Below, in pieces: positions 18,332 through 35,392 of a DNA stretch of 49,096 nucleotides. How positions within the stretch are numbered: the stretch's first letter is position 1; each line of letters starts with the position of its first letter. The DNA comes from Nanobdellota archaeon. GTDB taxonomy: Archaea > Nanobdellota > Nanobdellia > Woesearchaeales > GCA-2686295. The position numbers and the translations under genes are program-made. The notes beneath the pieces were generated by a model. It was not told the origin of the DNA, ran no database searches, and worked only from the letters and a program-made list of their open reading frames with translations. The DNA lies in assembly GCA_018817005.1 (NCBI GenBank), contig JAHIUF010000067.1, positions 1 through 49,096 on the forward strand. Direction: 5' to 3'.

Positions 18332-18392
18332 CAGCCTTTATATTAAACATCAGTCATAGATAATCTTATCTAGGCATGAGAGGGTGAAAAAT

Positions 18393-21300
18393 ATGAGGTT
18401 TTTAAGAAACTTAACAGTAATATGTGTCTTTATTATTCTGTTATCGTCGGTGTTTGCAGCCTTGGAAGTTGATAGAATTTCGGTTGAACACCAAAACATG
18501 GGCGATGTTGATCATGGAATAATTGGAAACACCTATGAATTATTTGTTGATGTGATAAACACAACAAATGAAACAATGACTTTTCTAATGTCAGAAGTCA
18601 GTCTTACAAGCTCTGATGGGGAAGATGTTGTATCATTAACAGATGCTTACTACAACGATGATGATTCATTAGTTTGTGGAGACCCAACTGTTTGCGCACT
18701 CGTTGGAAACTTTTATGTAACCCTCGTATTTGAAATAAACCTCTCAACAACAAGCGGAGAAAGAACTTTCACCCTCGAAATAAACTCTTCAGCTGTTGAT
18801 TTTGGAGAAGTAAATGATTCAATAAGCGTAACAAGCGTACTTGACGAGATAATGGATTGTTTTGGAACAACAACTGCGATTATAAGAGGAAATTACATTA
18901 ATGTCACAATAGACGATATAAACTTTGCAGATACACCATTTGAATATTTACAAGCAGATTATGGGGAGTTCTTTGGATTATTTAATTTTAATACACTATA
19001 TAATGGCTTTACGTTTGAAGGATATGTAATCAATACGAGTAATGATTTATACACGAGTACTTTTGTAGCAACAAACACAAACCTAAAAACATTTTTCAGA
19101 GAATATTGTAAGCAAAAAAATATTTTTTCAGACACGATTTGTGATTCAGAAATACCAGAAAATGAATCATTCACAAATATAACTGTTGCAAATGCAATAA
19201 TCGAATACGCAAATGATGCTAATTCTTTGAAACAATCAAACTTTGATTTTAACGGCAACATAACAAAATCAGGCTCACAGATTTTTGCAGAAGCATATTA
19301 TGGACAAACAACACAAGACATAATCGATGAGATGGAATCAATCCTAAACTATACTACATCAACAGTTCCGCTAATACTCTTAGATTCGATTGAAGATGCA
19401 TATTTCAAAGATTTAAACATGAACGTTCAAAACACTTCAACAGCAAACACTGTTTTTCAAAAGAACGGACTTTCAACAACAGCTGGTTCATATAATACCT
19501 ACTTACAATATACGGATCAATATGGAAATGTTGGTTTGAGAGAAGTAATAGTTCAAGTAATAAATACTGTACCAACAACTCCAACAATGAATATACTGCC
19601 AACAATCGCTTATGCAGTATCAAACTTGACATGTGTGGCTTCCAATAGTTCAGACGTAGATGGAGATACAGTAACATATATCTATGATTGGTATAAAGAT
19701 GATGTATTACAAACAGCACAAACATCAAGTACTGTCCCTTATATATATACTAAATACGGAGAAAATTGGACTTGTGCAGTAACACCTTTCGATGGTGTGG
19801 CAAATGGACCATCTGTAACTGATTCAGTGGTTATTTTAATGGGAACGAATACTGCTCCACAAATAACTGGTGTTATTCAAAACGTAACAACTCCTGAAAA
19901 TACACCAATAGATGCACAAAACCTATCAAGCCTAAGATATGACTTGGAAGACCATGTTAATAACTTGATTTGGAGTTTGATAGGCGTAAACAATAATTTA
20001 TACTTTGCAACAATAGTCAATAATCTATTATCTATTAGTCCTGTTTCTGGACAACACGGCTCAGACTCACTAATTGTTAGATTAACAGACCAAGGCGGTC
20101 TTTCAGATAGCCAAGAAATTTTAGTGAACATCACTTCTGTAAATGAAAATCCGATTATAACAACAGTTCCAACAACTACTGCAACTGAAGACCAACAATA
20201 CCTGTATGATGTAAACGCAGTTGATGGAGATGATGATACATTAACATATTCACTACAAACAGCACCAAGCGGTATGAATATTAACTCAACTTCTGGTTTA
20301 ATAACATGGACTCCAACAAACACGCAAGCAAACACGCAAGGAGGAATATACTCGGTTGTTGTAATGGTTTCTGATGTAGAAGCAAATGATAATCAGTCGT
20401 TTTCAATAACTGTAACGCCAGTAAATGATGCTCCGACTATTTCAGGATTACCAAATCCTTCAGGATTTGAAGATCAACAATTCACATTAGACGTAAGTCC
20501 TTATATTGATGATGTTGATGATACAAAGGCATTATTGACCATAACAACCAATTCATCATATGCAACGATGTTTGGACAAACAATAGTATTTCAATATCCT
20601 GACGGAATAACATCAGAAAATGTTTTAGTAACAGTAAAAGATGATGATGGATTATCAGCATCAGACACAATAGTTGTGAGCATAACAGCGATTAATGATG
20701 CGCCATCAACACCAGTAATTTCAGTAACGCCAAAATCACCTGCAGCCACCAACTCATTGACTTGTACAGTAGTAACTCCAAGTACCGATATTGATAGTGA
20801 AACTATAACTTATAATTTTTATTGGTATTTAAATGGCTTATTACAAGAAAACACTTCAACAACACAAACATCAAATATTCTATCTTCAAGTCTCTTAGGA
20901 GGACAAGTTTGGAGTTGTAATGTTACTGCAACAGACGGCACGAACTCAACAACTGAAGTTTCAGATTCTGTAACTGTTGGAAATACTGCACCAACAACAC
21001 CTGTTGTAGATGTTACACCAAATGTTGCTTACACAACCAATAATTTGGTTTGTAGTATAATAACAAGTAGCACTGATGCAGACAATGATACAATTACTTA
21101 TAGTTATAGATGGTACAAAAAGACTTCAGGTCAAACACAGTTCTATCTACAGCCACAAACAACAGCAACGCTTGCAAATAGTAATACTATCAGAGGCGAT
21201 ACATGGAAATGTGAAGTAAGAGCATATGATACAAAAGCCTACAGTACTGCAGTATATGATACTGTAACAATTATGAATAGTAAACCAACAATATCAAGTC

Positions 21301-24300
21301 CCACACCATCAACTTCTACTGTAACAACAAACGAACAAACAAGCAAAGTTTTTAGTATAACACCTGCTGATGTTGATTCAACAGATACTTTGACTGTGAA
21401 ATGGTATAAAGGAACATCTGTTGTTGGAACTGGAAACTCATACACTTATACACCAACATATACTTCTGCAGGAACATACACTATTAAGGTAGTAGTTTCA
21501 GATGGTTTATTAACAGTTGAAAGATCATGGATTTTGGGAGTTACTGATGTTAATAGAAATCCAGTTATTGGAACAATCGGTTCAAAGACTTGTAACGAAA
21601 GATCAACTTGTACTATTTATGTTTCAGCAACAGATCAAGATACAGATGATTCAATAAAGTTTTATGATGACACAACCTTGTTCACTATAAACGTTAATAC
21701 AGGTGCAATAAGCTTCACAGCGCCAAATGTATTGGTTGATTCAACTAGTAATGTTCGAATAACAGTTGTTGACACTAAAGGTGGATATGGCACTGAAATA
21801 TTTCCTTTGACAATAAAGAATGTTAACAGAGCACCAATTTTAAATCCTGTAGGATCACTTTCAGCAGCCGAAAACCAAACATTTTCAAAACAATTAACTG
21901 CAAGCGACCCAGATAGTGATAGTCTTATATATAGTGATAACGCAACACTTTTTAATATTACATCTAGTGGTTTGATATCATTTGCACCAACACAAGCAGA
22001 TGTTGGAGTTCATACAGTCAGAATAAGTATTGATGATTCTCACGGAGGATATGACTATGAAGATATAACTGTGCATGTGTTAAACACTAATAATGCACCA
22101 GTAATTAACGATTATTATCCAGCAGTTTCAACAGTAAGTCTGAATGAATTACAATCACAAACATTTAATGTAAGTGCAACAGATCAGGATGGAACAACAT
22201 CAAACATTAAATGGTACAAAAATAGTGTGTTAGTGGGTCAAACAGATACTTACACAATGACTACTAGTTATACAAGTGCAGGACGATATACAATACTTGC
22301 AATGGTTGATGATGGTATACTTAGTGATACTCAATCATGGACTGTAAATGTTGCAAATGTCAATAGAGCACCACAAATAACAGCTATACCGTCACAAACA
22401 GCTTATGAAGGACAACCATTCACTTACTCAGTTCAAGCAACAGATGCAGATGGAAACACTTTGGTTTATTCAACAGACAGTTCATTATTCAGGATTGGAC
22501 TTCTAACTGGTAAAATACAATTTACACCTGTTCAACCAACAAATGAAGTGGATACACACACTATAACTGTTTATGTTGCTGATGGAACAACCAGAAAAAG
22601 CACAACTTTTGAATTAAAAATTACAAATGTAAATGATGCGCCAGTTCTTCCAGTAATAGGATCAATAACAGCAGTTGAAAATGAATTATACACGAAAACA
22701 ATTTCTGCAACCGACAAAGACGGTGACGTGTTAATATATGATGATAACACTGGCTTGTTCGACACAAACCCTTCAACAGGCGTGATAAGCTTTACGCCAG
22801 GATTCCAAGACTCAGGTTCATATCCTGTCAGAATAACTGTAAGAGATACTCACGGATCAATGGATTATGAAGATATAACTGTAACTGTTCTTGAAACAAA
22901 CCAAGCGCCAAATATAACAGCTTACACACCGGCAGTTGCAAGTGTTAGTATGAAAGAAGATAATTCAACAACCTTTAATGTGAGCGCTACAGATTCTGAC
23001 GGAACAACTCCATCTTATAAGTGGTATTTGGACTCAACAATTGTAGGAACTGATTCAACATATACCTTTGAAGGAAACTTTACAACCAGTGGAACTAATG
23101 CCGGAAATTATAACGTAACAGTTGTTGTTTCAGATGGAAGCTTAACAGACACTAATGTTTGGGCTTTACAAGTAAATAGAACGAGAGATTCAGACACTGA
23201 TTATATACCTGACTACATAGATAACTGTAAATTAATATACAACCCTGATCAGACAGATCTTGATAACTCAACACCTGAAGGTTTGCTTTGTGAAAACAAC
23301 ATTGATGGAGATGATATTCCTGATGATGAAGACTTCATACTTGGAAGTGCTGAAAATATGGAGTTAAATTTCGAAAACGCTGAGTTTAAAATAGAAAATA
23401 GCACAGATTTAAATCAGGAAATAAATGGAACAAAAGAAGTATCTTTAACTTATAAAGAGTATGATACTGAAACCGGTCTGGCAACAGAGTATGAGTTAGT
23501 ATCTTTTAATTTTGACTTTAATGAATCTCAAACATTAGATCTTGGAAATGTAACTGTAAAAACACAAGATGAAGATGCAACTGCAGGAAGCGTTATTATT
23601 GCAGGAATAAATCTTGAATCACAAAGCGAAACAAAAACAGTTTATGTTCAAGATTTAGACAACACTAAAAATAGTGTTTGCATAAAAGATGCAGAGATTG
23701 CGTCAATTACAGAAATCAGAGGAACATGTAATGGTGCAAATGAATTCAAATTACCTTGTACACAATCTGGACACTCTCGAACTGTTAATGGGAACACATA
23801 TACTTGTACTGATTTAGGTGACAGGTATAAAATAGAGGGTCTGCTTCATTCAGGTGTGAGAGAACTTGCTTGTACACCGTCTTGGAGTTGTGATTCTTGG
23901 TCATCTTGTGTTGGTGGAGTGCAAACTTGTAGTGGCTGGACTGATGCTAATAGTTGCGGCGAGACCTATTCTGACTCTAACACTCAGAGTTGTGCATCTG
24001 GAAGCTCATATCAAAGTGTTGTCTCAGAAGAAGAAGTTGTTGTACCAATAAAAGTTGGTGTTTGGTTAGAACTACGTCCTGGTGTTAAAAGAACATGGGT
24101 TGTTGGTGGAGACATATATATAGACTCTATCATCTTTGAAGTTTCAGAATTAGTAACTAATGTTAAGTTTTCTGTTGAACAGCCAGAAACACCCACAATA
24201 GCAAAAGAAGGAAAGATTTTCAAATATTTTAATATAGAAAAAACAAATATTGAAAACTCACAATTTGCTTTTGTATATATAAATTTCAGGGTACCAAAGA

Positions 24301-25271
24301 CTTGGCTTACAGAACAAATGCTTGATTCTGAAAAAATATCTTTATTCAGATATACAGAAAATTCTTGGGAAGAACTTCCAACAACGTTTTCTAGTGAAGA
24401 TGCAGATAATGTTTATTATGAATCTGAAAGTGCAGGACTTAGTCTTTTTGCAATTGGTGAAAAAAAAGTGATAGTAGAAGTGCCTGAAGCTGAGGATTTA
24501 GAATCAACAGATAAAGAAAAACCTGTTGTAGAAGTGGAAGATGATGTAAAAGATGCAAAAGAGATGACAGATTTAGAAGAAAAATTAAAAGATTTAATAA
24601 CCATTAAGCCCATACCTAAGATTTTCTTAAAAGGAGTTCTTGGAGTAGTCTTGCTGATTTTAATATTGCTTTTAATAGTGTCTTTCCTCAAGTTTTTGGA
24701 CAGACCTCCAAAACCTCCGACATCTGAATCTAAAAAGAAATTAAAAGACGCTGCTAAAGAATCAACAAAGAAAGACCAAACACCTATAAACATTAACCAG
24801 GTTGAAGACTACATTATTGACAACTTATCTAAAGGTCATTCAAAACAAAGGATAAAAGAAGCATTGCTTACAACTGGTTGGAATTTAAAACAGATAGATC
24901 CTTTATTAAGACAATACTCTGTTTCTTTTTCCACAGACAAGAATGTAGATTCTTTGATTGATAAACATCTGAAAAAAGCTGAGAAGCATTATCAGAATTC
25001 GCTGAAACACGAAAAGAAAATACGAGACTATAAAAAAGCACAAAAACTTGCTAAGGTGAAGAAATCTGAGAAAAAAGTGTTGTATCATAAGAAGCAAATG
25101 GAGTTTCACAGGAAAACCGCTCAACATCATTATAAACAAGTGAATTTAAAGAAGGCATTAGATCTTCATAAAAAAGGCGAACGCTTCTATAATGCTGGTA
25201 ACATGACAAAAGCCCAGCATCATTACAAACTGGCGCAGAAATATCGAGAAGAAGCAGAGAAGAAACTTTAG
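18393..25271 (+). CDS. Giant (2292-residue) membrane-anchored Ig/cadherin-repeat surface protein
   Basis: A signal peptide (LTVICVFIILLSSVFA) precedes an N-terminal beta-rich region of about 400 residues. About 13 Ig/PKD/cadherin-like units follow, marked by linkers such as NTAPQIT, NDAPTIS, NRAPILN and NQAPNIT. Then comes a thrombospondin type 3-like calcium stretch (RDSDTDYIPDYIDNC, DGDDIPDDED), a cysteine-rich TSP1-like unit (WSCDSWSSCVGGVQTC), and a PGF-pre-PGF-like domain ending GLSLFAIGEKK. One transmembrane helix (GVLGVVLLILILLLIVSFL, about residue 2085) is followed by a basic cytoplasmic tail. In the tail, VEDYIIDNLSKGHSKQRIKE plus the residues after it form a UBA-like three-helix motif, and K/H-rich helices end the chain. 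It therefore spans outside to inside. It is likely an adhesin or cell-envelope organiser with an intracellular partner. Confidence 0.88.
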   Translation: MRFLRNLTVICVFIILLSSVFAALEVDRISVEHQNMGDVDHGIIGNTYELFVDVINTTNETMTFLMSEVSLTSSDGEDVVSLTDAYYNDDDSLVCGDPTVCALVGNFYVTLVFEINLSTTSGERTFTLEINSSAVDFGEVNDSISVTSVLDEIMDCFGTTTAIIRGNYINVTIDDINFADTPFEYLQADYGEFFGLFNFNTLYNGFTFEGYVINTSNDLYTSTFVATNTNLKTFFREYCKQKNIFSDTICDSEIPENESFTNITVANAIIEYANDANSLKQSNFDFNGNITKSGSQIFAEAYYGQTTQDIIDEMESILNYTTSTVPLILLDSIEDAYFKDLNMNVQNTSTANTVFQKNGLSTTAGSYNTYLQYTDQYGNVGLREVIVQVINTVPTTPTMNILPTIAYAVSNLTCVASNSSDVDGDTVTYIYDWYKDDVLQTAQTSSTVPYIYTKYGENWTCAVTPFDGVANGPSVTDSVVILMGTNTAPQITGVIQNVTTPENTPIDAQNLSSLRYDLEDHVNNLIWSLIGVNNNLYFATIVNNLLSISPVSGQHGSDSLIVRLTDQGGLSDSQEILVNITSVNENPIITTVPTTTATEDQQYLYDVNAVDGDDDTLTYSLQTAPSGMNINSTSGLITWTPTNTQANTQGGIYSVVVMVSDVEANDNQSFSITVTPVNDAPTISGLPNPSGFEDQQFTLDVSPYIDDVDDTKALLTITTNSSYATMFGQTIVFQYPDGITSENVLVTVKDDDGLSASDTIVVSITAINDAPSTPVISVTPKSPAATNSLTCTVVTPSTDIDSETITYNFYWYLNGLLQENTSTTQTSNILSSSLLGGQVWSCNVTATDGTNSTTEVSDSVTVGNTAPTTPVVDVTPNVAYTTNNLVCSIITSSTDADNDTITYSYRWYKKTSGQTQFYLQPQTTATLANSNTIRGDTWKCEVRAYDTKAYSTAVYDTVTIMNSKPTISSPTPSTSTVTTNEQTSKVFSITPADVDSTDTLTVKWYKGTSVVGTGNSYTYTPTYTSAGTYTIKVVVSDGLLTVERSWILGVTDVNRNPVIGTIGSKTCNERSTCTIYVSATDQDTDDSIKFYDDTTLFTINVNTGAISFTAPNVLVDSTSNVRITVVDTKGGYGTEIFPLTIKNVNRAPILNPVGSLSAAENQTFSKQLTASDPDSDSLIYSDNATLFNITSSGLISFAPTQADVGVHTVRISIDDSHGGYDYEDITVHVLNTNNAPVINDYYPAVSTVSLNELQSQTFNVSATDQDGTTSNIKWYKNSVLVGQTDTYTMTTSYTSAGRYTILAMVDDGILSDTQSWTVNVANVNRAPQITAIPSQTAYEGQPFTYSVQATDADGNTLVYSTDSSLFRIGLLTGKIQFTPVQPTNEVDTHTITVYVADGTTRKSTTFELKITNVNDAPVLPVIGSITAVENELYTKTISATDKDGDVLIYDDNTGLFDTNPSTGVISFTPGFQDSGSYPVRITVRDTHGSMDYEDITVTVLETNQAPNITAYTPAVASVSMKEDNSTTFNVSATDSDGTTPSYKWYLDSTIVGTDSTYTFEGNFTTSGTNAGNYNVTVVVSDGSLTDTNVWALQVNRTRDSDTDYIPDYIDNCKLIYNPDQTDLDNSTPEGLLCENNIDGDDIPDDEDFILGSAENMELNFENAEFKIENSTDLNQEINGTKEVSLTYKEYDTETGLATEYELVSFNFDFNESQTLDLGNVTVKTQDEDATAGSVIIAGINLESQSETKTVYVQDLDNTKNSVCIKDAEIASITEIRGTCNGANEFKLPCTQSGHSRTVNGNTYTCTDLGDRYKIEGLLHSGVRELACTPSWSCDSWSSCVGGVQTCSGWTDANSCGETYSDSNTQSCASGSSYQSVVSEEEVVVPIKVGVWLELRPGVKRTWVVGGDIYIDSIIFEVSELVTNVKFSVEQPETPTIAKEGKIFKYFNIEKTNIENSQFAFVYINFRVPKTWLTEQMLDSEKISLFRYTENSWEELPTTFSSEDADNVYYESESAGLSLFAIGEKKVIVEVPEAEDLESTDKEKPVVEVEDDVKDAKEMTDLEEKLKDLITIKPIPKIFLKGVLGVVLLILILLLIVSFLKFLDRPPKPPTSESKKKLKDAAKESTKKDQTPININQVEDYIIDNLSKGHSKQRIKEALLTTGWNLKQIDPLLRQYSVSFSTDKNVDSLIDKHLKKAEKHYQNSLKHEKKIRDYKKAQKLAKVKKSEKKVLYHKKQMEFHRKTAQHHYKQVNLKKALDLHKKGERFYNAGNMTKAQHHYKLAQKYREEAEKKL

Positions 25272-27029: not shown

Positions 27030-28724
27030 ATGTTTAAAAACAAAACTGTTAATTTTAAGGATTTGCTAGTATCATATTTTAGCATGGAAATAGGCATACA
27101 TCCAAAAATACCTACTTATTCAGGCGGTCTTGGTGTTCTTGCGGGCGATATGCTTAGAAGTTGTGCTGATCTTGAATTGCCAGTAATAGGCGTTACTCTT
27201 CTTTATAAAAAAGGGTATTTCAAGCAAAAAATAAACAGTTCTGGAGAGCAGGTTGAAGAAGAAATGCATTGGAATCCTGAAGAATTCATGAAACTTTTTT
27301 CAAATAAAATAACTGTGAAGATGGAAGGACGAGATGTAAAAGTGCGAGCCTGGCTGTATGAAGTAAGGGGTGTTACTGGTCATGTTAATCCAATAATATT
27401 TTTAGATACTAACCTCCTTGAAAACTCTGAAGAAGACAGAAAAATAACCCAGCAATTATATGGTTCTGATGACAAGTATCGTTTGTCACAAGAAATAATT
27501 CTTGGAATTGGCGGTGTTAGGATGCTTGAAAGCCTTAAATGTAAAAATCTTAGAAAGTATCATATGAATGAAGGACACTCTGCATTATTAGGACTTGAAC
27601 TATATCAAAAACTTAAATCAACAAATTCAGATGCGATGGCTACTGTTCGTGAAAAATGTGTTTTCACAACTCACACACCAGTTCCTGCAGGGCATGACCA
27701 GTTTGATAAAACTTTAGCAGAACAAATGATTCCCGAGATGCTCACGGACGATATAAAAAATGAACTTTTTCTAAATGGAAAGTTGAACATGACTTTTCTC
27801 GGTCTTAGGTTTAGTGAATATATTAATGGTGTCGCAAAAAAACACGGTGAAGTATCAAGATCTATGTTTCCAGGATATCATATTGAATCAATAACTAACG
27901 GTATTCATTCGCAGTTTTGGACAACCTCTTCTTTAAGAAAACTATTTGACAAGTATTTAAAGGGCTGGGAGGGTGATCCTTTTAGTCTAAGATATGTGTT
28001 AAGCATTCCTAAAGAGGAAATCTGGCAAGCGCACATGGAAGCAAAGAGGCTACTAACTAATTTTGTTAATAAAAACTATGGTGTTGAGATGAACCCTGAT
28101 ATTTTTACAATCGGTTTTGCAAGAAGAGCTGCAACCTACAAAAGAGGAGACATGCTTTTTTCAGATATAGAGAGATTAATAAAAATTGCGAAAAAATCAA
28201 AAGGATTGCAAATAATTTACGCTGGAAAAGCTCATCCACGTGATTATGAGGGAAAACAATTAATAAAAAGAATTATTGAAAAAATGAACTCTGTAAAAGA
28301 TCAGATTAAAGTTTGTTATATGGAAAATTATGATATTGAAACTGCGCAAGTATTAATTCCAGGAGTTGATGTTTGGCTTAACACACCTATGCGCCCAAAA
28401 GAAGCATCTGGAACTTCAGGTATGAAAGCAGCACATAACGGTGTTCCGCACTTTTCAACTCTTGATGGCTGGTGGCTTGAAGGTCACATTGAAAATGTTA
28501 CTGGCTGGAGTATTGGATCTCACCCAATGATTTCCAAAGAAGCCAATCATGATGAGGACGTTGAAGATATGTACACAAAACTTGAATACATAATTATTCC
28601 TAAATTCTATGATGATCACAGTTCTTGGCTTGACATAATGAGGCATGCAATAGCAATTAATGGTTCTTTTTTCAATACTCACAGAATGGTACAGCAATAT
28701 GTACTAAATGCCTACTTCGAGTAG
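27030..28724 (+). CDS. Alpha-glucan (glycogen/maltodextrin) phosphorylase, short form
   Basis: This 564-residue GT35-family enzyme releases glucose 1-phosphate from alpha-1,4-glucan using phosphate and a pyridoxal phosphate cofactor. YFSMEIGIHPKIPTYSGGLG opens the catalytic core. HMNEGHSALLGLE, TTHTPVPAGHD and FARRAATYKR follow. The cofactor-binding segment EASGTSGMKAAHNG is near residue 460, with the lysine that should carry the cofactor. The length fits the short archaeal/bacterial AlgP type rather than the ~800-residue glycogen phosphorylase. A GAGGGTGA ribosome site lies upstream of ATG 27030. Its product could feed the GlgC and phosphomutase enzymes nearby, or be drawn from glycogen they make. 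The stop codon is inside a strong hairpin. Confidence 0.92.
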   Translation: MFKNKTVNFKDLLVSYFSMEIGIHPKIPTYSGGLGVLAGDMLRSCADLELPVIGVTLLYKKGYFKQKINSSGEQVEEEMHWNPEEFMKLFSNKITVKMEGRDVKVRAWLYEVRGVTGHVNPIIFLDTNLLENSEEDRKITQQLYGSDDKYRLSQEIILGIGGVRMLESLKCKNLRKYHMNEGHSALLGLELYQKLKSTNSDAMATVREKCVFTTHTPVPAGHDQFDKTLAEQMIPEMLTDDIKNELFLNGKLNMTFLGLRFSEYINGVAKKHGEVSRSMFPGYHIESITNGIHSQFWTTSSLRKLFDKYLKGWEGDPFSLRYVLSIPKEEIWQAHMEAKRLLTNFVNKNYGVEMNPDIFTIGFARRAATYKRGDMLFSDIERLIKIAKKSKGLQIIYAGKAHPRDYEGKQLIKRIIEKMNSVKDQIKVCYMENYDIETAQVLIPGVDVWLNTPMRPKEASGTSGMKAAHNGVPHFSTLDGWWLEGHIENVTGWSIGSHPMISKEANHDEDVEDMYTKLEYIIIPKFYDDHSSWLDIMRHAIAINGSFFNTHRMVQQYVLNAYFE

Positions 28725-28870: not shown

Positions 28871-28974
28871 ATTTGTTTTTTAAAATATACAAATATATAC
28901 AAAACGTGTTTTAAGAAATTTACATGTGTTAAACATATATATTCATTTCACTATTGTATATATTGGAGAAGAAA

Positions 28975-29994
28975 ATGACTGCTGCCATTGATAAAACACT
29001 TTATGATGTTCTTGAAATAAGCCCGCGAGCGACAAAACCAGTAATTGAAGCAGCATATAAAACACTTATAAAAAAATATCATCCCGACAAAAACAAAGGT
29101 GATGAAAGAATTGCAAAAACACTAAACGAAGCAAAAACAATTCTTCTAAATGACAATAAACGAAAGGGATATGATAAAGAAAGACAAACATTTGAAGGAA
29201 AAATAATAAATAACTATCAAATACTTGAAAGAATTACAGAAGGACGATATGGTGATATCTATAAAGGCGAACACTTAATTCTAAAATCTCCTGTATGCAT
29301 CAAACACTGCAAAAATATATCTCCTCAAGACACCGACTTGTTTTTTTCAGAAGCAAAGGTTATGTGGAACTTAAGACACTATGGGGTGCCAATAGTTAGA
29401 GATTTTTTTAAATTTGAAGATGGGACGCCCGGCATTGTTATGAGTTATATAAACGGTCCAACACTCGAAAAAATTGTTGAGAAAAACAAACAACTGGATC
29501 CAGAACACGTTATGTGGATTGCAGAACGAACAGCAAACATACTCAAATATCTTCATTATAATGGTGTGATTCATGGAGATGTTAAGCCAGCAAACATAAT
29601 AATACAGCCCGAAAATCACATGCTTGTTTTAGTTGATTATGGGTTTGCATCAATAATACCACGCGAACTTGAAGATGTTAAAGGTGCAACTCTTTATTAT
29701 TCTGCACCAGAACAAAGATCAGGAAACATAATTCTTCCAGAATCAGATTTCTATTCCTTAGGCATGACCATGGTTTATTCTTTAGGTGGTAATGTCAAAA
29801 CAAGAACATTACCTGAAAAAATACCCGAACCAATCTGTGACCTAATTGAATGGCTTACAGAAAGAGACGTAGATAATAGACCACACTGGGATTATGAGGA
29901 TCTTTGTGAAGAAATAATTGATGTTAGAAAGCAAGTCTTTGGAAGAACAAGATCAAAAATGAAGCCAATACCAGGCTTTGAAATGGAGGGATAA
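28975..29994 (+). CDS. J-domain/Ser-Thr protein kinase fusion
   Basis: This 339-residue protein has an N-terminal DnaJ J-domain (about residues 8-72, with LYDVLEISPRA and the HPDK loop that stimulates Hsp70) joined to a protein kinase. The kinase has a degenerate glycine loop (ITEGRYGDIYKG), the ATP lysine in CIKHCK, a catalytic loop HGDVKPANI (G in place of the usual R), DYGFA (DFG variant) and SAPEQ. All residues needed for catalysis seem present. A CATATATATT box near 28935 and a TTGGAG ribosome site support ATG 28975 over the in-frame 28954. It leads a tight operon with a vWA protein and a pyruvate-kinase-like enzyme. It may phosphorylate proteins brought by Hsp70 or by the vWA partner. 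Confidence 0.88.
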   Translation: MTAAIDKTLYDVLEISPRATKPVIEAAYKTLIKKYHPDKNKGDERIAKTLNEAKTILLNDNKRKGYDKERQTFEGKIINNYQILERITEGRYGDIYKGEHLILKSPVCIKHCKNISPQDTDLFFSEAKVMWNLRHYGVPIVRDFFKFEDGTPGIVMSYINGPTLEKIVEKNKQLDPEHVMWIAERTANILKYLHYNGVIHGDVKPANIIIQPENHMLVLVDYGFASIIPRELEDVKGATLYYSAPEQRSGNIILPESDFYSLGMTMVYSLGGNVKTRTLPEKIPEPICDLIEWLTERDVDNRPHWDYEDLCEEIIDVRKQVFGRTRSKMKPIPGFEMEG

Positions 29995-29996
29995 AA

Positions 29997-30926
29997 ATGT
30001 CTGAATCAGGTGATTATAACCCTGGACCGTGGCGAGGGCACGATTTTGGCTCTGCCAGAAAAACATATGACGCGCACGTAGGAAGAAGCTATAGCGTAGC
30101 GAAGTCGCAGAAAAAAACAATAAAAGATGTTGTTGAACCAACATTGAAAACCAACAGCAAATCGCCATTGGTTATTGCTTGTGATGTTACGGGTTCAATG
30201 GGTTCCTGGCCTGCAACAATCTTTTCAAAACTACCATACCTCGACTTGGAAGGAAAAGAATATCTTGGTCCTTCAATGGAGATAAGTTTTGCAGCAGTAG
30301 GAGATGCTTATTGTGATGACTATCCATTGCAAGTAAGACCTTTTGCTGGGGGAAAAGACCTTGAAAACAGGTTGAAAGAATTAATAATTGAAGGTGGCGG
30401 CGGTGGAACTGCTCAGGAAAGTTATGAACTTGCAGCAATGTATTACGCAAATAATGTAGATATGCCAAGAGCTAAGAACAAGCCAATATTTATCTATATC
30501 GGTGATGAAGGGTTTTATGACTTTGTGAATAGTGACCAAGTTAAAAAACACTCATACGTTACTATGAGCTCAAGAACGAGTGGTAAAAAAGCATTTGAAA
30601 ACTTAAAAAAGAAATATTCGGTGTATCTTATAAGAAAGCCTTATGAAACAGGCAGAGGTAATGGTTTAAGTGTTATGGACCAGCGTATTTATGACCAATG
30701 GGCAGAGGTTCTTGGAGCAGACCATATAACGATGCTTCCAGAAGCAAGTCGTGTCGTTGATGTAATCTTTGGAATACTTGCGAAAGAGACTGAAAGAATT
30801 GATTATTTTCACGATGAGTTGAAAGGACGACAGACAGACGCACAGGTTAGTACTGTTTTGAAATCTCTTAAGCCAATACACGGAGGTCTCATAACAGAGG
30901 ATAGTAGGCTTATAAGAGGCCTTTAG
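29997..30926 (+). CDS. von Willebrand factor A domain protein
   Basis: This 309-residue soluble protein begins 2 bases after the kinase stop, with GGAGGG just upstream. The vWA metal site is clear: DVTGSMG (DxxGSxG variant) at about residue 63, a glycine run GGGGGTAQES that should carry the MIDAS threonine, and IYIGDEG for the third metal loop. No signal peptide or membrane helix is visible, so it acts inside the cell. The N-terminal 40 residues are glycine/tyrosine-rich (GPWRGHDFGSARKTYDAHVG). Cytosolic vWA proteins usually scaffold protein complexes; the linked kinase is its natural partner or modifier. Confidence 0.85.
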   Translation: MSESGDYNPGPWRGHDFGSARKTYDAHVGRSYSVAKSQKKTIKDVVEPTLKTNSKSPLVIACDVTGSMGSWPATIFSKLPYLDLEGKEYLGPSMEISFAAVGDAYCDDYPLQVRPFAGGKDLENRLKELIIEGGGGGTAQESYELAAMYYANNVDMPRAKNKPIFIYIGDEGFYDFVNSDQVKKHSYVTMSSRTSGKKAFENLKKKYSVYLIRKPYETGRGNGLSVMDQRIYDQWAEVLGADHITMLPEASRVVDVIFGILAKETERIDYFHDELKGRQTDAQVSTVLKSLKPIHGGLITEDSRLIRGL

Positions 30927-30938
30927 AGGTGGTAAATT

Positions 30939-31874
30939 ATGAAAGACTTGGAATTATTAGTAACTCTTTGGCCAAGTTTTCTTCATTTTGAGGAATTCGC
31001 CAAAGATGATAGGCTTGCAGGAATCAGACTTAATACAGCGATGGTTAAAAGTTTTGAACTGGATGATGAGTTTAAAAAAGCAAATGATATTAAGGGTACA
31101 GTTCCTTTATGGTTTGACATAAAAGGTACACAGTTAAGAATCACCGAAGTCTATCCCACAAAAGACCATTTAGAATTAACCCTTAATCATCCAATAGATG
31201 TTCAAACGCCTTCAGGAGTGCTTTTCAAAGCAGGGGCAGATTACGCTATGCTTAAAGAGGTTGTTGATGGCAACCACTTGATATTTGACGGCGGTCCTGA
31301 ATACATGGTTTATGAGGGTGAATCTTTACATATTAGACATCCAAGTCTTGAAGTTAAAGGTCCGATTTTTCTTGATTATGAGATTGAAAAGATTGAAAAA
31401 GCAAAAAAAGCAGGTTTTACAAAGTTCTTTTTGTCATATGCTGAGAGCAAAAAAGCTATTGATGAATTTAGAAGTTATGTTGGAAAAGAATCTGAAATAA
31501 TTGCGAAGATTGAGAATAAGAAAGGTCTTGAATACGTTGCTAGTGAGTTCAAGCCCGAGCCAAATCTTTCACTCATGGCAGCAAGAGGCGATCTCTATGT
31601 CGAGGTCGATAAGCCTCATCACATGTTGGACGCGCTGAAATTGATTGTTCAAAAAGATCCGAGAGCCTATGTTGGTTCAAGAATTCTTTTGTCCATTATC
31701 AATCAGCCCGTTCCTTCATGTGCTGATCTTTCAGATGTTGCATGGCTTTATGATATTGGTTATAAGCGTATGCTTCTTTGTGATGAACTTTGCTTAAAAG
31801 GTGATCTTCTTGGAGTGGCTGTTAATGTTTTTGATCATTTTAGGAATAGTTATGCTAAAGAAAAATTATTTTAA
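30939..31874 (+). CDS. Short pyruvate-kinase-like enzyme in the kinase-vWA operon
   Basis: This 311-residue protein matches pyruvate kinase along its catalytic part: VTLWPS near the start, GIRLNTA, WFDIKGTQLRI, an intervening beta domain, IIAKIENKKGLE, LMAARGDLYVEV, SRILLSIINQPVPSCADLSDV. The catalytic lysine (AKIEN), metal-binding glutamate and aspartate, and the substrate arginine (IRLN) appear kept. The threonine of the family TQMLESM segment is replaced by serine in SRILLSI. The ~150-residue C-terminal allosteric domain is absent. A GAGGTGG ribosome site lies 6 bases ahead of ATG 30939. It may be a divergent pyruvate kinase or a relative with another phosphate or enol substrate. Confidence 0.72.
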   Translation: MKDLELLVTLWPSFLHFEEFAKDDRLAGIRLNTAMVKSFELDDEFKKANDIKGTVPLWFDIKGTQLRITEVYPTKDHLELTLNHPIDVQTPSGVLFKAGADYAMLKEVVDGNHLIFDGGPEYMVYEGESLHIRHPSLEVKGPIFLDYEIEKIEKAKKAGFTKFFLSYAESKKAIDEFRSYVGKESEIIAKIENKKGLEYVASEFKPEPNLSLMAARGDLYVEVDKPHHMLDALKLIVQKDPRAYVGSRILLSIINQPVPSCADLSDVAWLYDIGYKRMLLCDELCLKGDLLGVAVNVFDHFRNSYAKEKLF

Positions 31875-31891
31875 TTTTTTTTAATTTTTTT
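31874..31891. terminator. Bidirectional T/A-rich terminator
   Basis: Two T-runs lie in the 17-base gap between the convergent pyruvate-kinase-like and kinase-like genes. Confidence 0.5.
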
Positions 31892-32458
31892 TTAAATATA
31901 TTTGTCTTCTTCGAAATCTTTTTCACTACAGAATATATCTTTTAATCCCATAAGGTCTACGTGTTTATCTAATGCAAATCTTCCTTTGTCAAAACGTTCT
32001 CTTATTCTTGCAAACCCTATGTCTATCATTGTTGCTTTGGAAAAATCTGGAGACACAACTATGTTTAGTTTTCTTATGTCGAGACCTGCAATGCCTAATC
32101 CATGCAATTCTCTTATTGTTTCTATTATCTGGTCTGTTAGTCTTGGACTCCCTATTTTATAAGGAAAATCTTCTACAGTTTTTCCTGGTGCGTATTCTTT
32201 TAGTATTGCTATATGGTTTTGTTTTATTTCGTATTGTTCTACTAGCTTTGTTATTCCTTGAACGTCTTTTGCTTTTAATAGTATTCTTGTTTCGTTTTCT
32301 ATTCCATATTTTTGAATGTTTTGATCTAGTTCTCCCACTTTTAGTATGTATAGGTTGTTCTTTCTTTCTACTTTGAACACCGCTGATACTCCGTAATCAT
32401 ATTTTTTTAGAATTTCAAGATTTGAATCAAAGCATGTTATGAGTTCTTTATATTCCAT
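31892..32458 (-). CDS. Small protein-kinase-fold phosphotransferase
   Basis: This 188-residue protein is a compact member of the kinase-like superfamily (compare RIO, Bud32 and lipopolysaccharide kinases). LYILKVGE carries the likely ATP lysine. The catalytic loop reads HGLGIAGLDIRKLNI, with D, K and N in HxD-type positions, and MIDIGFA replaces DFG. It has no activation segment or C-lobe beyond that. A TTTATAAA box at 32481-32488 is about 27 bases before the ATG, suiting a leaderless mRNA. It converges on the J-kinase/vWA operon and so may be part of the same system, though it has its own promoter. Its substrate (protein, sugar or small molecule) is unknown. Confidence 0.75.
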   Translation of the reverse strand: MEYKELITCFDSNLEILKKYDYGVSAVFKVERKNNLYILKVGELDQNIQKYGIENETRILLKAKDVQGITKLVEQYEIKQNHIAILKEYAPGKTVEDFPYKIGSPRLTDQIIETIRELHGLGIAGLDIRKLNIVVSPDFSKATMIDIGFARIRERFDKGRFALDKHVDLMGLKDIFCSEKDFEEDKYI

Positions 32459-33508: not shown

Positions 33509-34882
33509 ATGACAATCGAAAACACTTTAGCGTTCATAATGGCTGGAGGGCTTGGAAGCAGACTCAAAATATTGACTCGTGACAGGTCCAAATCTTCAGT
33601 CGGAATTTTAGGAAGATACAGAATATTTGATTTTGTAGCAACAAATGTTGCAAATTCAGGAATACCAAGAGTAATCGTTGCAACACAATCTCAACCACGT
33701 TCACTAAACAACCATATAGGTGTTGGTGAACCATGGGGTTTTAATGATAGAAATAAAAATATTGAGATATCTCAACCCTATGTATCATTATCAGGACTCG
33801 TAACTTTAGATGGGACTGCAGATGCGGTGAGAAAAAACATAAATCGAATAAATAGCAGATATCCAACAACAGAAACAGTTATGGTCTTAGGAGGAGATCA
33901 TGTATATGTTGCTGATTATAAGGACGTAATAAATTTTCATAAAAAGAAAGAATCTGACTTAACAATAATGACAACTCTTATACCGGATGAAAAAGCATCT
34001 GATTTTGGAATTATACGAATCAATGATAATGGAAGAATAATGGAGTTTGCAGAAAAACCAAAAGATGAAGAAACACTAAGAAAATTTCGATTAACACCTG
34101 AAACAAAAGAGCAGATAGGTATAAAAGATTCTAATCTTAATTATTTAGCATCAATGGGAAACTATGTTTTTGACTGGAAAAAACTAAACTGTTATCTTGA
34201 ATCATTTGAAGGAAACGATTTTGGCTATGATATAATACCTGCAATAAAAGAATCTGGTGGAGATATACATGCTTATGTTTTTGAAGGATATTGGCGCGAT
34301 GTTGGAAAGATAAAAGATTATTTTGAAACCAATATGGAAGCTGTAAAAAATGAAACTGTAGATTTAATTGCAGGACAGGTTTCAACCTCTGAAAGAAACC
34401 TTCCGGGAGTAAGAATTGGTTTGAATGTTTCTATAGATGGATTCATTGGAAGTCCTGGTGTATATATTGGTTCCGGATCAAAAATTAAAGATGTTGTTAC
34501 AGGATTTCAAGTTCACATTGGTGAAAATTGTGATGTTTCAAAAGTCGTGCTTTTAGGCGCAAACAGAAATCAATACTCCAATAATGGAAAGCTTTTGCGA
34601 GAATATAAAACAGTTATTGGAGATAATTCAAAACTTGAAAATATTATTGTAGACAAAAACGTTTTCATAGGGAAGAATGTTTATTTAAGTCCTGAATTCG
34701 GAACGCCTGAAGAAAGAACTGCGAACCTTGAAAAGATAGGTTTAAAGCCTTACCTTGATGATAATCCTGAAACTTTTTCAAACTCAGACTTTTATATGGA
34801 TAATGAAACGAACATCTTAGTTTTGGGGAAACAACAAGAACCTTTTGATAGACCTTTAATTCCTGATGGATTTAGAGGATGA
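33509..34882 (+). CDS. glgC: Glucose-1-phosphate adenylyltransferase (ADP-glucose pyrophosphorylase)
   Basis: This 457-residue enzyme makes ADP-glucose from glucose 1-phosphate and ATP, the committed step of glycogen synthesis. Visible features are the nucleotide-binding loop MAGGLGSRL (followed by LTRDRSK), GTADAVRKN, LGGDHVY, FAEKPKD and YWRDVGKIKDYF. The C-terminal left-handed helix has hexapeptide-like repeats and ends in a GlgC-like tail. The first loop has GLGSRL in place of the GxGTRL of many relatives. A TTTATAAA box at 33477-33484 fits a leaderless start at ATG 33509. With the phosphorylase 5 kb upstream it implies an alpha-glucan store. Its stop abuts that of a convergent gene. Confidence 0.9.
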   Translation: MTIENTLAFIMAGGLGSRLKILTRDRSKSSVGILGRYRIFDFVATNVANSGIPRVIVATQSQPRSLNNHIGVGEPWGFNDRNKNIEISQPYVSLSGLVTLDGTADAVRKNINRINSRYPTTETVMVLGGDHVYVADYKDVINFHKKKESDLTIMTTLIPDEKASDFGIIRINDNGRIMEFAEKPKDEETLRKFRLTPETKEQIGIKDSNLNYLASMGNYVFDWKKLNCYLESFEGNDFGYDIIPAIKESGGDIHAYVFEGYWRDVGKIKDYFETNMEAVKNETVDLIAGQVSTSERNLPGVRIGLNVSIDGFIGSPGVYIGSGSKIKDVVTGFQVHIGENCDVSKVVLLGANRNQYSNNGKLLREYKTVIGDNSKLENIIVDKNVFIGKNVYLSPEFGTPEERTANLEKIGLKPYLDDNPETFSNSDFYMDNETNILVLGKQQEPFDRPLIPDGFRG

Positions 34883-35392
34883 TTAATTTCTTTTTTTAAT
34901 AATTTCAACTGCTTTTGCGCAAGTTTCTTCAAGTGTTGAATAAATTGGAACATTTGGACAATCTTGAGAAAATCTTCTTCTGATATATCTTGCGTTTGTA
35001 AATCCTTCTTCAATGCCAATAACTAGTTTTGATTTATGGGCTTGATGCATCATTTTCCATTCAGCGAGTTCAAATCTTGTTGTTTGGGCGTAAGCTCTTT
35101 CGCAAAGGTGTTCTTCTTCTTTTGCAAGCCAGAACATAACAACTCCATTGTTACCTGCTTTTCGTAAGTGAAAAGTTTCCCAGTCAACTTGCTCTTCATA
35201 CATTGCTTTTGGAAAATCCTTTGAATGGCTCTCTATCGGTCTTCTTGGTGAAGCAATATAAATGTCTGGTTCTCGCTTAGAGATGTATTCCATGGCTTTT
35301 TGGTGCCATTTTGGTGCCCCTTGTATTGGCCCTGCTAGAAATATTAGTGGTTTATCATACTTGTAAAGATACTTTGGTGGTGTAATTATCAT
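34883..35392 (-). CDS. Nucleoside 2-deoxyribosyltransferase-like protein
   Basis: This 169-residue protein shows IFLAGPIQGAPKWHQKA at residue 17, a SPRR segment, QVDWETFHLRKAG, a hydrophobic VVMFWLAKE strand and FELAEWKMM, and ends with IGIEEGFTNARYI. These match the Nuc_deoxyrib_tr family (DUF4406-like), which exchanges or removes bases from deoxynucleosides or nucleotides. The family catalytic glutamate would lie in the FELAEW segment. The TATA-like ATATATAA about 28 bases upstream supports the start. Nucleotide salvage is the likely role. Confidence 0.8.
   Translation of the reverse strand: MIITPPKYLYKYDKPLIFLAGPIQGAPKWHQKAMEYISKREPDIYIASPRRPIESHSKDFPKAMYEEQVDWETFHLRKAGNNGVVMFWLAKEEEHLCERAYAQTTRFELAEWKMMHQAHKSKLVIGIEEGFTNARYIRRRFSQDCPNVPIYSTLEETCAKAVEIIKKRN

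Follow-up and report, generated by a model that had tools for sequence, protein, structure and literature searches.

What a J-domain kinase, a von Willebrand factor A (vWA) protein and a truncated pyruvate-kinase-like (PKL) enzyme might do together is the question raised by three adjacent genes of a Nanobdellota archaeon, which lie in a stretch of 49,096 nucleotides (contig JAHIUF010000067.1 of assembly GCA_018817005.1, hereafter the window) from a genome of 1.66 Mb that is 91% complete. A preliminary description, made from the sequence alone, had read these genes as one tight operon encoding a chaperone-guided phosphorylation system with an enzyme linked to phosphoenolpyruvate (PEP), and had noted a compact second kinase facing them. 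TFB-like genes on other contigs (L055, L057) agree with the archaeal origin of the genome. The open reading frames and the sequence bear out the arrangement, with three forward-strand genes separated by 2 bases (J-kinase to vWA) and 12 bases (vWA to PKL), each with its own ribosome-binding site (Table 1), and we find that the J-kinase, vWA and PKL genes are associated far above chance.

The three proteins and their recurrence as a cassette

Each of the three proteins is what it had first been taken for. In the J-kinase, Pfam places a DnaJ domain (PF00226) on residues 9-67 (5e-15) and a protein kinase domain (PF00069) on residues 81-274 (2e-31), with the kinase catalytic residues intact in a catalytic column check and no Pfam match after the kinase domain. 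The vWA protein has no match in Pfam or in a sequence search of the PDB, and its fold was recognized from an AlphaFold2 model (pLDDT 90.7), for which Foldseek returned integrin beta I and von Willebrand factor A3 domains (E down to 3e-6); it carries the metal site DVTGSMG (D63, T65 and S67) and a GDE loop (D170 and E171) in near-invariant alignment columns, and it matches phrog_2971 (2e-27), a family with no assigned function. The PKL protein matches the pyruvate kinase barrel (PF00224, residues 133-268, 1e-10), and pyruvate kinases are the best Foldseek hits of its AlphaFold2 model (pLDDT 93.8; E 3e-17), from which the C-terminal domain is absent.

Homologs of the trio lie adjacent, not scattered, in distant genomes, contrary to an outcome that the preliminary description had said would refute it, and this strongly supports a single system. 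Among 99 archaeal relatives (window genome included) the vWA gene is present in 7, with PKL adjoining nearly every readable vWA locus, and when more of the phylum is sampled it is matched in 16 of 371 genomes; because these are scattered over many families, the cassette counts as accessory. L247 and L248, which are among the weakest matches in this sample, are not trios, and at L247:2154-4163 a distant vWA gene abuts a gene with a J-like HPDK motif and no Pfam match, with no kinase, possibly an independent J-vWA pairing. The window genome has three loci, namely the window trio, C24 and C41, with PKL occurring three times, and this genome and three others (G010, G146 and G344) each have the J-kinase type together with a second type whose kinase lacks the J domain. 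Searches with tblastn found vWA in 206 phage records, the majority from Mycobacterium phages and others from Rhizobium and Vibrio phages, while a 485-kb huge phage (LR745208.1) carries the complete J-kinase-vWA-PKL trio and plasmids of Rhodococcus, Agrobacterium and other hosts carry vWA. Five scans of IMG/VR, in which vWA sub-alignments served as queries (the full-range alignment had no conserved stretches), gave about 150 loci, and the scan with the sub-alignment of the type found in nicotinamide adenine dinucleotide (NAD) operons gave no viral match. The association was found again in over 15 loci of archaea and on over 100 phage contigs, and the cassette is well established as a genuine, horizontally moving module.

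That PKL is a minimal pyruvate kinase of ordinary glycolysis, lying beside signalling genes by chance, is very improbable. No full-length pyruvate kinase was detected in the window genome at its 91% completeness, as this explanation would have it, but relatives carry both forms (in one case with the full-length gene, L056:736-2148, on a contig that also has a PKL trio), the window genome has its PKL in triplicate, phages carry PKL with the same partners, and the K+ and ADP contacts of PKLs differ from those of pyruvate kinase. The presence of the full-length enzyme in relatives and the altered contacts lead us to reject PKL as the sole ordinary pyruvate kinase, the possibility that the preliminary description had itself set against its proposal.

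Exchange of the enzyme and state of the kinase

A dereplicated set of 142 vWA loci, drawn from archaeal, bacterial, plasmid and phage sequences, reveals that the enzyme is exchangeable. An adenylosuccinate synthetase (AdSS)-like gene lies near vWA on the same strand in 110 loci and PKL in 28, with one or the other beside vWA in all except six; both occur in two, L014 from Clostridia and L053 from archaeon G022, and we read the latter as one locus with L054, the two being contig ends of that genome. The types are kinase-vWA-AdSS (53 loci), vWA-AdSS (52) and kinase-vWA-PKL (22), the rest being minor variants, and outside the PKL type the AdSS homolog comes after vWA. Gaps between the module genes are mostly short. 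A kinase is found in about 60% of the loci, and in those with none detected the upstream gene, where checkable, has no kinase-profile match. As vWA and an enzyme are the constant pair, the vWA protein is most likely a scaffold or regulator of the enzyme. Another kinase-pyruvate kinase pairing was seen at L059:6257-8792, where a different kinase gene (513 residues) overlaps a pyruvate-kinase-like gene (334 residues) with no vWA.

The kinase is live or dead according to the enzyme beside it. A single clade of the vWA tree holds the PKL type (SH-aLRT 99), and both two-enzyme loci branch beside it, the Clostridia locus as its sister; the kinase tree agrees. Each of the 33 PKL-only loci has a kinase with intact catalytic residues (N171 is replaced by Q in one), and in all 58 loci that contain AdSS these residues are broken (56 with AdSS only and 2 with both enzymes). 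If the ancestral kinase was live, activity would have been lost once or twice, with AdSS present each time, and because independent events are so few the rule is a strong pattern and not a statistical proof. Since no version that contains AdSS has a live kinase, phosphorylation by this protein cannot be what every version of the module does, and the idea of chaperone-guided phosphorylation first put forward for the window trio does not extend to the whole system, while its PEP-linked enzyme does agree with a retained PEP/Mg2+ site.

The HPD motif of the J domain is retained in about 50 of the 56 AdSS-only kinases and so outlasts kinase activity, which is what one would expect of a co-chaperone module, in which the J-kinase or J-pseudokinase and vWA would bring Hsp70 to the enzyme, or to NAD enzymes encoded nearby, for maturation or protection, with kinase activity secondary. 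The vWA-HPDK gene pair of L247 would fit such a module, as would the co-chaperone role of vWA domains in MoxR systems described in PMC8195603 and PMC7824862. However, the J domain is absent from the NAD-operon kinases and no kinase is detectable in the 52 vWA-AdSS loci, making this explanation rather unlikely.

Active sites, NAD operons and the proposed function

The roles of the active-site residues of pyruvate kinase and of PurA, in which a TTGR-type loop holds aspartate, are general knowledge. The window PKL retains the PEP/Mg2+ residues R30, N32, D60, R67, K190, E192 and D218. Across 37 PKLs, which are mostly 300-340 residues long and without the C domain, the PEP/Mg2+ residues R32, R73, K220, E222 and D246 (E. 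coli pyruvate kinase numbering) are retained in 36-37, with the catalytic Lys220 and Asp246 equivalents invariant or nearly so; T278 is Ser in all 37, Q279 is Arg in nearly all, all or nearly all have substitutions of the K+ ligands S36 and T67, and 34 have another residue at the ADP contact H37. In the AdSS-like proteins GDxGKG is kept in 106 of 110, the catalytic His is invariant in the aligned set and the AdSS Asp is invariant or nearly so, and the aspartate-binding loop TTGRxRR is not kept (TTGR in 1 of 110), with a QGxxR pattern instead. Because the PEP/Mg2+ and GDxGKG/His residues are kept, and the K+/ADP contacts and aspartate loop are replaced, both sites seem to retain the phosphoryl-donor half and to be altered in the acceptor half.

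Retained donor sites and lost acceptor contacts might also characterize former enzymes that now do no more than bind PEP or GTP/IMP and inform vWA and the J-kinase of the energy or nucleotide state. Such a metabolite sensor could account for the interchangeability of two unrelated metabolic enzymes beside one vWA family and for the missing regulatory domain of PKL, but we consider it unlikely, as the Lys220/Asp246 equivalents of PKL and the Asp, His and GDxGKG of the AdSS-like proteins are conserved beyond what binding alone would need.

Genomic context suggests where such chemistry may operate. About a dozen related archaea have the J-less kinase-vWA-PKL trio within an operon for NAD synthesis. 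The gene immediately before the kinase encodes nicotinamide mononucleotide adenylyltransferase (NMNAT) in 11 of the 13 J-less loci from archaea (L052 and L239 being the exceptions), and the other genes of these operons encode nicotinate phosphoribosyltransferase, nicotinamidase-like, NadE, NUDIX, ADP-ribosylglycohydrolase and NAD-kinase-like proteins. Outside NAD operons the kinases usually carry the J domain, and NAMPT, NMNAT/NUDIX or NADAR genes occur close to some of the phage loci. Four NAD-operon loci have a gene for a protein of about 290 residues between vWA and PKL (L240:8628-9491, L244:7357-8256, L245:8928-9818 and L246:7253-8113), and the L245 copy of this protein matches nothing in Pfam or NCBIfam. 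A third context, conserved in two families of the order (L057:8350-19901 and L058:10086-18216), has vWA, PKL, Ham1, thymidylate-synthase-like and QueC-like genes with several uncharacterized genes (up to 760 residues) and no kinase, and looks like a nucleotide-derivative pathway.

The NAD, ADP-ribose and NADAR genes near some loci, together with a patchy and mobile spread (16 of the 371 genomes sampled in the phylum, over 200 phage records, and plasmids), raise the alternative of a conflict device, whether phage counter-defence or host defence, that would act through NAD or purine nucleotides with an aim comparable to that of phage NAD-restoring pathways. PADLOC families, however, match neither the vWA, PKL nor AdSS-like proteins and give generic kinase matches only, and the archaeal J-less trio lies in an operon resembling housekeeping NAD synthesis, so that we regard this device as distinctly unlikely.

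The reading that we favour, and hold as a real possibility at somewhat less than even confidence, is of a vWA-scaffolded, J-kinase-controlled phosphotransfer module in NAD or nucleotide metabolism. The vWA protein, as the most constant part, would be a Mg2+-dependent scaffold for a small phosphotransfer enzyme, which would be PKL in the window type and the AdSS-like protein in the sister type, and for the J-domain kinase, whose J domain may recruit Hsp70 to this assembly. The live kinase of the PKL type would control the complex or provide an NTP-dependent phosphorylation step, and in the AdSS type the GTP chemistry of the AdSS-like enzyme may replace that step and leave the kinase as a carrier of the J domain only. 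The substrate would most likely be a member of the NAD/ADP-ribose pool, either a nucleotide or a dinucleotide. Of this biochemistry, we infer that a complex forms, that Hsp70 is recruited, what the substrate is and in which direction control runs.

Several observations weigh against the phosphotransfer module, in addition to the small number of events behind the live/dead rule. The window trio of the J-kinase type is not beside NAD genes, and the evidence for an NAD link is drawn from paralogous loci (C24, in the window genome, is one) and a minority of the phage loci, NAD genes being common in phages anyway. Moreover, the NAD-operon kinases are J-less, and Hsp70 recruitment by the kinase is therefore not required everywhere.

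Known systems and neighbouring genes

The module resembles the TerY-P triad of a vWA protein, a PP2C phosphatase and a Ser/Thr kinase (PMC11090510, after Anantharaman et al. 2012) in being a small operon with a Ser/Thr kinase and a cytosolic vWA protein. It differs in that its kinase has an N-terminal J domain and no C-terminal zinc ribbon/OB fusion, its vWA protein has no Pfam match and a pyruvate-kinase-like or AdSS-like enzyme is added; no PP2C was found by Pfam among the scanned window genes or recognized by inspection of recurrent neighbours. With the vWA-MoxR ternary conflict systems (PMC7159879 and PMC8195603) it shares vWA as a Mg2+-dependent scaffold or co-chaperone and a variable third component, but it lacks the MoxR AAA+ ATPase partner, none having been recognized by inspection of recurrent neighbours, and the fused effector. 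With these differences, we reject membership in either system.

The phage AdSS homolog PurZ of 2-aminoadenine synthesis offers a parallel to the AdSS-like protein, which in contrast is paired with vWA and a J-pseudokinase and has its aspartate loop replaced. PHROG lists the phage genes separately, as phrog_2971 (vWA, function unassigned), phrog_3043 and phrog_2361 (kinase) and phrog_1211 (AdSS), and a mycobacteriophage genome announcement likewise names kinase and PurA-like genes separately. The combination is not mentioned in the passages found on TerY-P (PMC11090510), vWA-MoxR systems (PMC7159879, PMC8195603), jumbo-phage chaperones and NAD (PMC7824862) or viral NAD and ADP-ribose genes (PMC9503650), and the literature searched gave no description of the vWA/kinase/AdSS link, the PKL swap or the live/dead rule. 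The cassette thus apparently had no earlier description, as first supposed, within a search that was thin on subscription journals, where one may exist.

Three phage gene families that are hypothetical or doubtfully annotated, in hundreds of sequenced phages including the much-studied cluster C mycobacteriophages, are in this way joined in one system with a testable rule (a kinase live only without AdSS), a metabolic context (NAD) and two new enzyme activities predicted from well-known folds. As the AdSS-type version occurs in Mycobacterium smegmatis phages, a genetically tractable model is at hand. More tentatively still, these may belong to a mobile enzyme-switching system of a new class. 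In it, a repurposed pyruvate-kinase-like or AdSS-like enzyme, governed by a vWA scaffold together with a J-domain kinase or pseudokinase, would carry out a new phosphotransfer on NAD- or ADP-ribose-type nucleotides, serving cellular NAD homeostasis and phage infection.

Table 1. Features of the trio and of the converging gene (window coordinates)
Feature	Position	Strand	Evidence or remark
RBS GGAGA of J-kinase	28965..28969	+	sequence
J-domain/Ser-Thr kinase fusion, 339 residues	28975..29994	+	Pfam, catalytic column check
J domain with HPD; kinase domain	~28999-29175; from ~29215	+	within J-kinase gene
RBS GGAGG of vWA gene	29985..29989	+	sequence; within 3' end of J-kinase gene
vWA protein, cytosolic, 309 residues	29997..30926	+	AlphaFold2, Foldseek, phrog_2971, near-invariant columns
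RBS GAGGTGG of PKL gene	30926..30932	+	sequence
PKL, 311 residues: barrel and short B domain, C-terminal domain missing	30939..31874	+	
Fourth gene, compact Bud32/RIO-like kinase	31892-32458		convergent on trio, 17-base gap

The fourth gene does have the compact kinase fold and the converging orientation first ascribed to it, but the partnership that was suggested is rejected, as its matches in the loci surveyed were limited to J-kinases and their relatives and it was not seen beside other copies of the trio. The trio is flanked by an alpha-glucan phosphorylase gene (27030-28724) and a glucose-1-phosphate adenylyltransferase-like gene (33509-34882), and nothing indicates that either is a member. 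Further out, the window has a nucleoside 2-deoxyribosyltransferase-like gene (34883-35392; PF15891, 2e-9) and, at 18384-25271, a gene for a repeat protein of 2295 residues that looks secreted and has a membrane segment at its C terminus.

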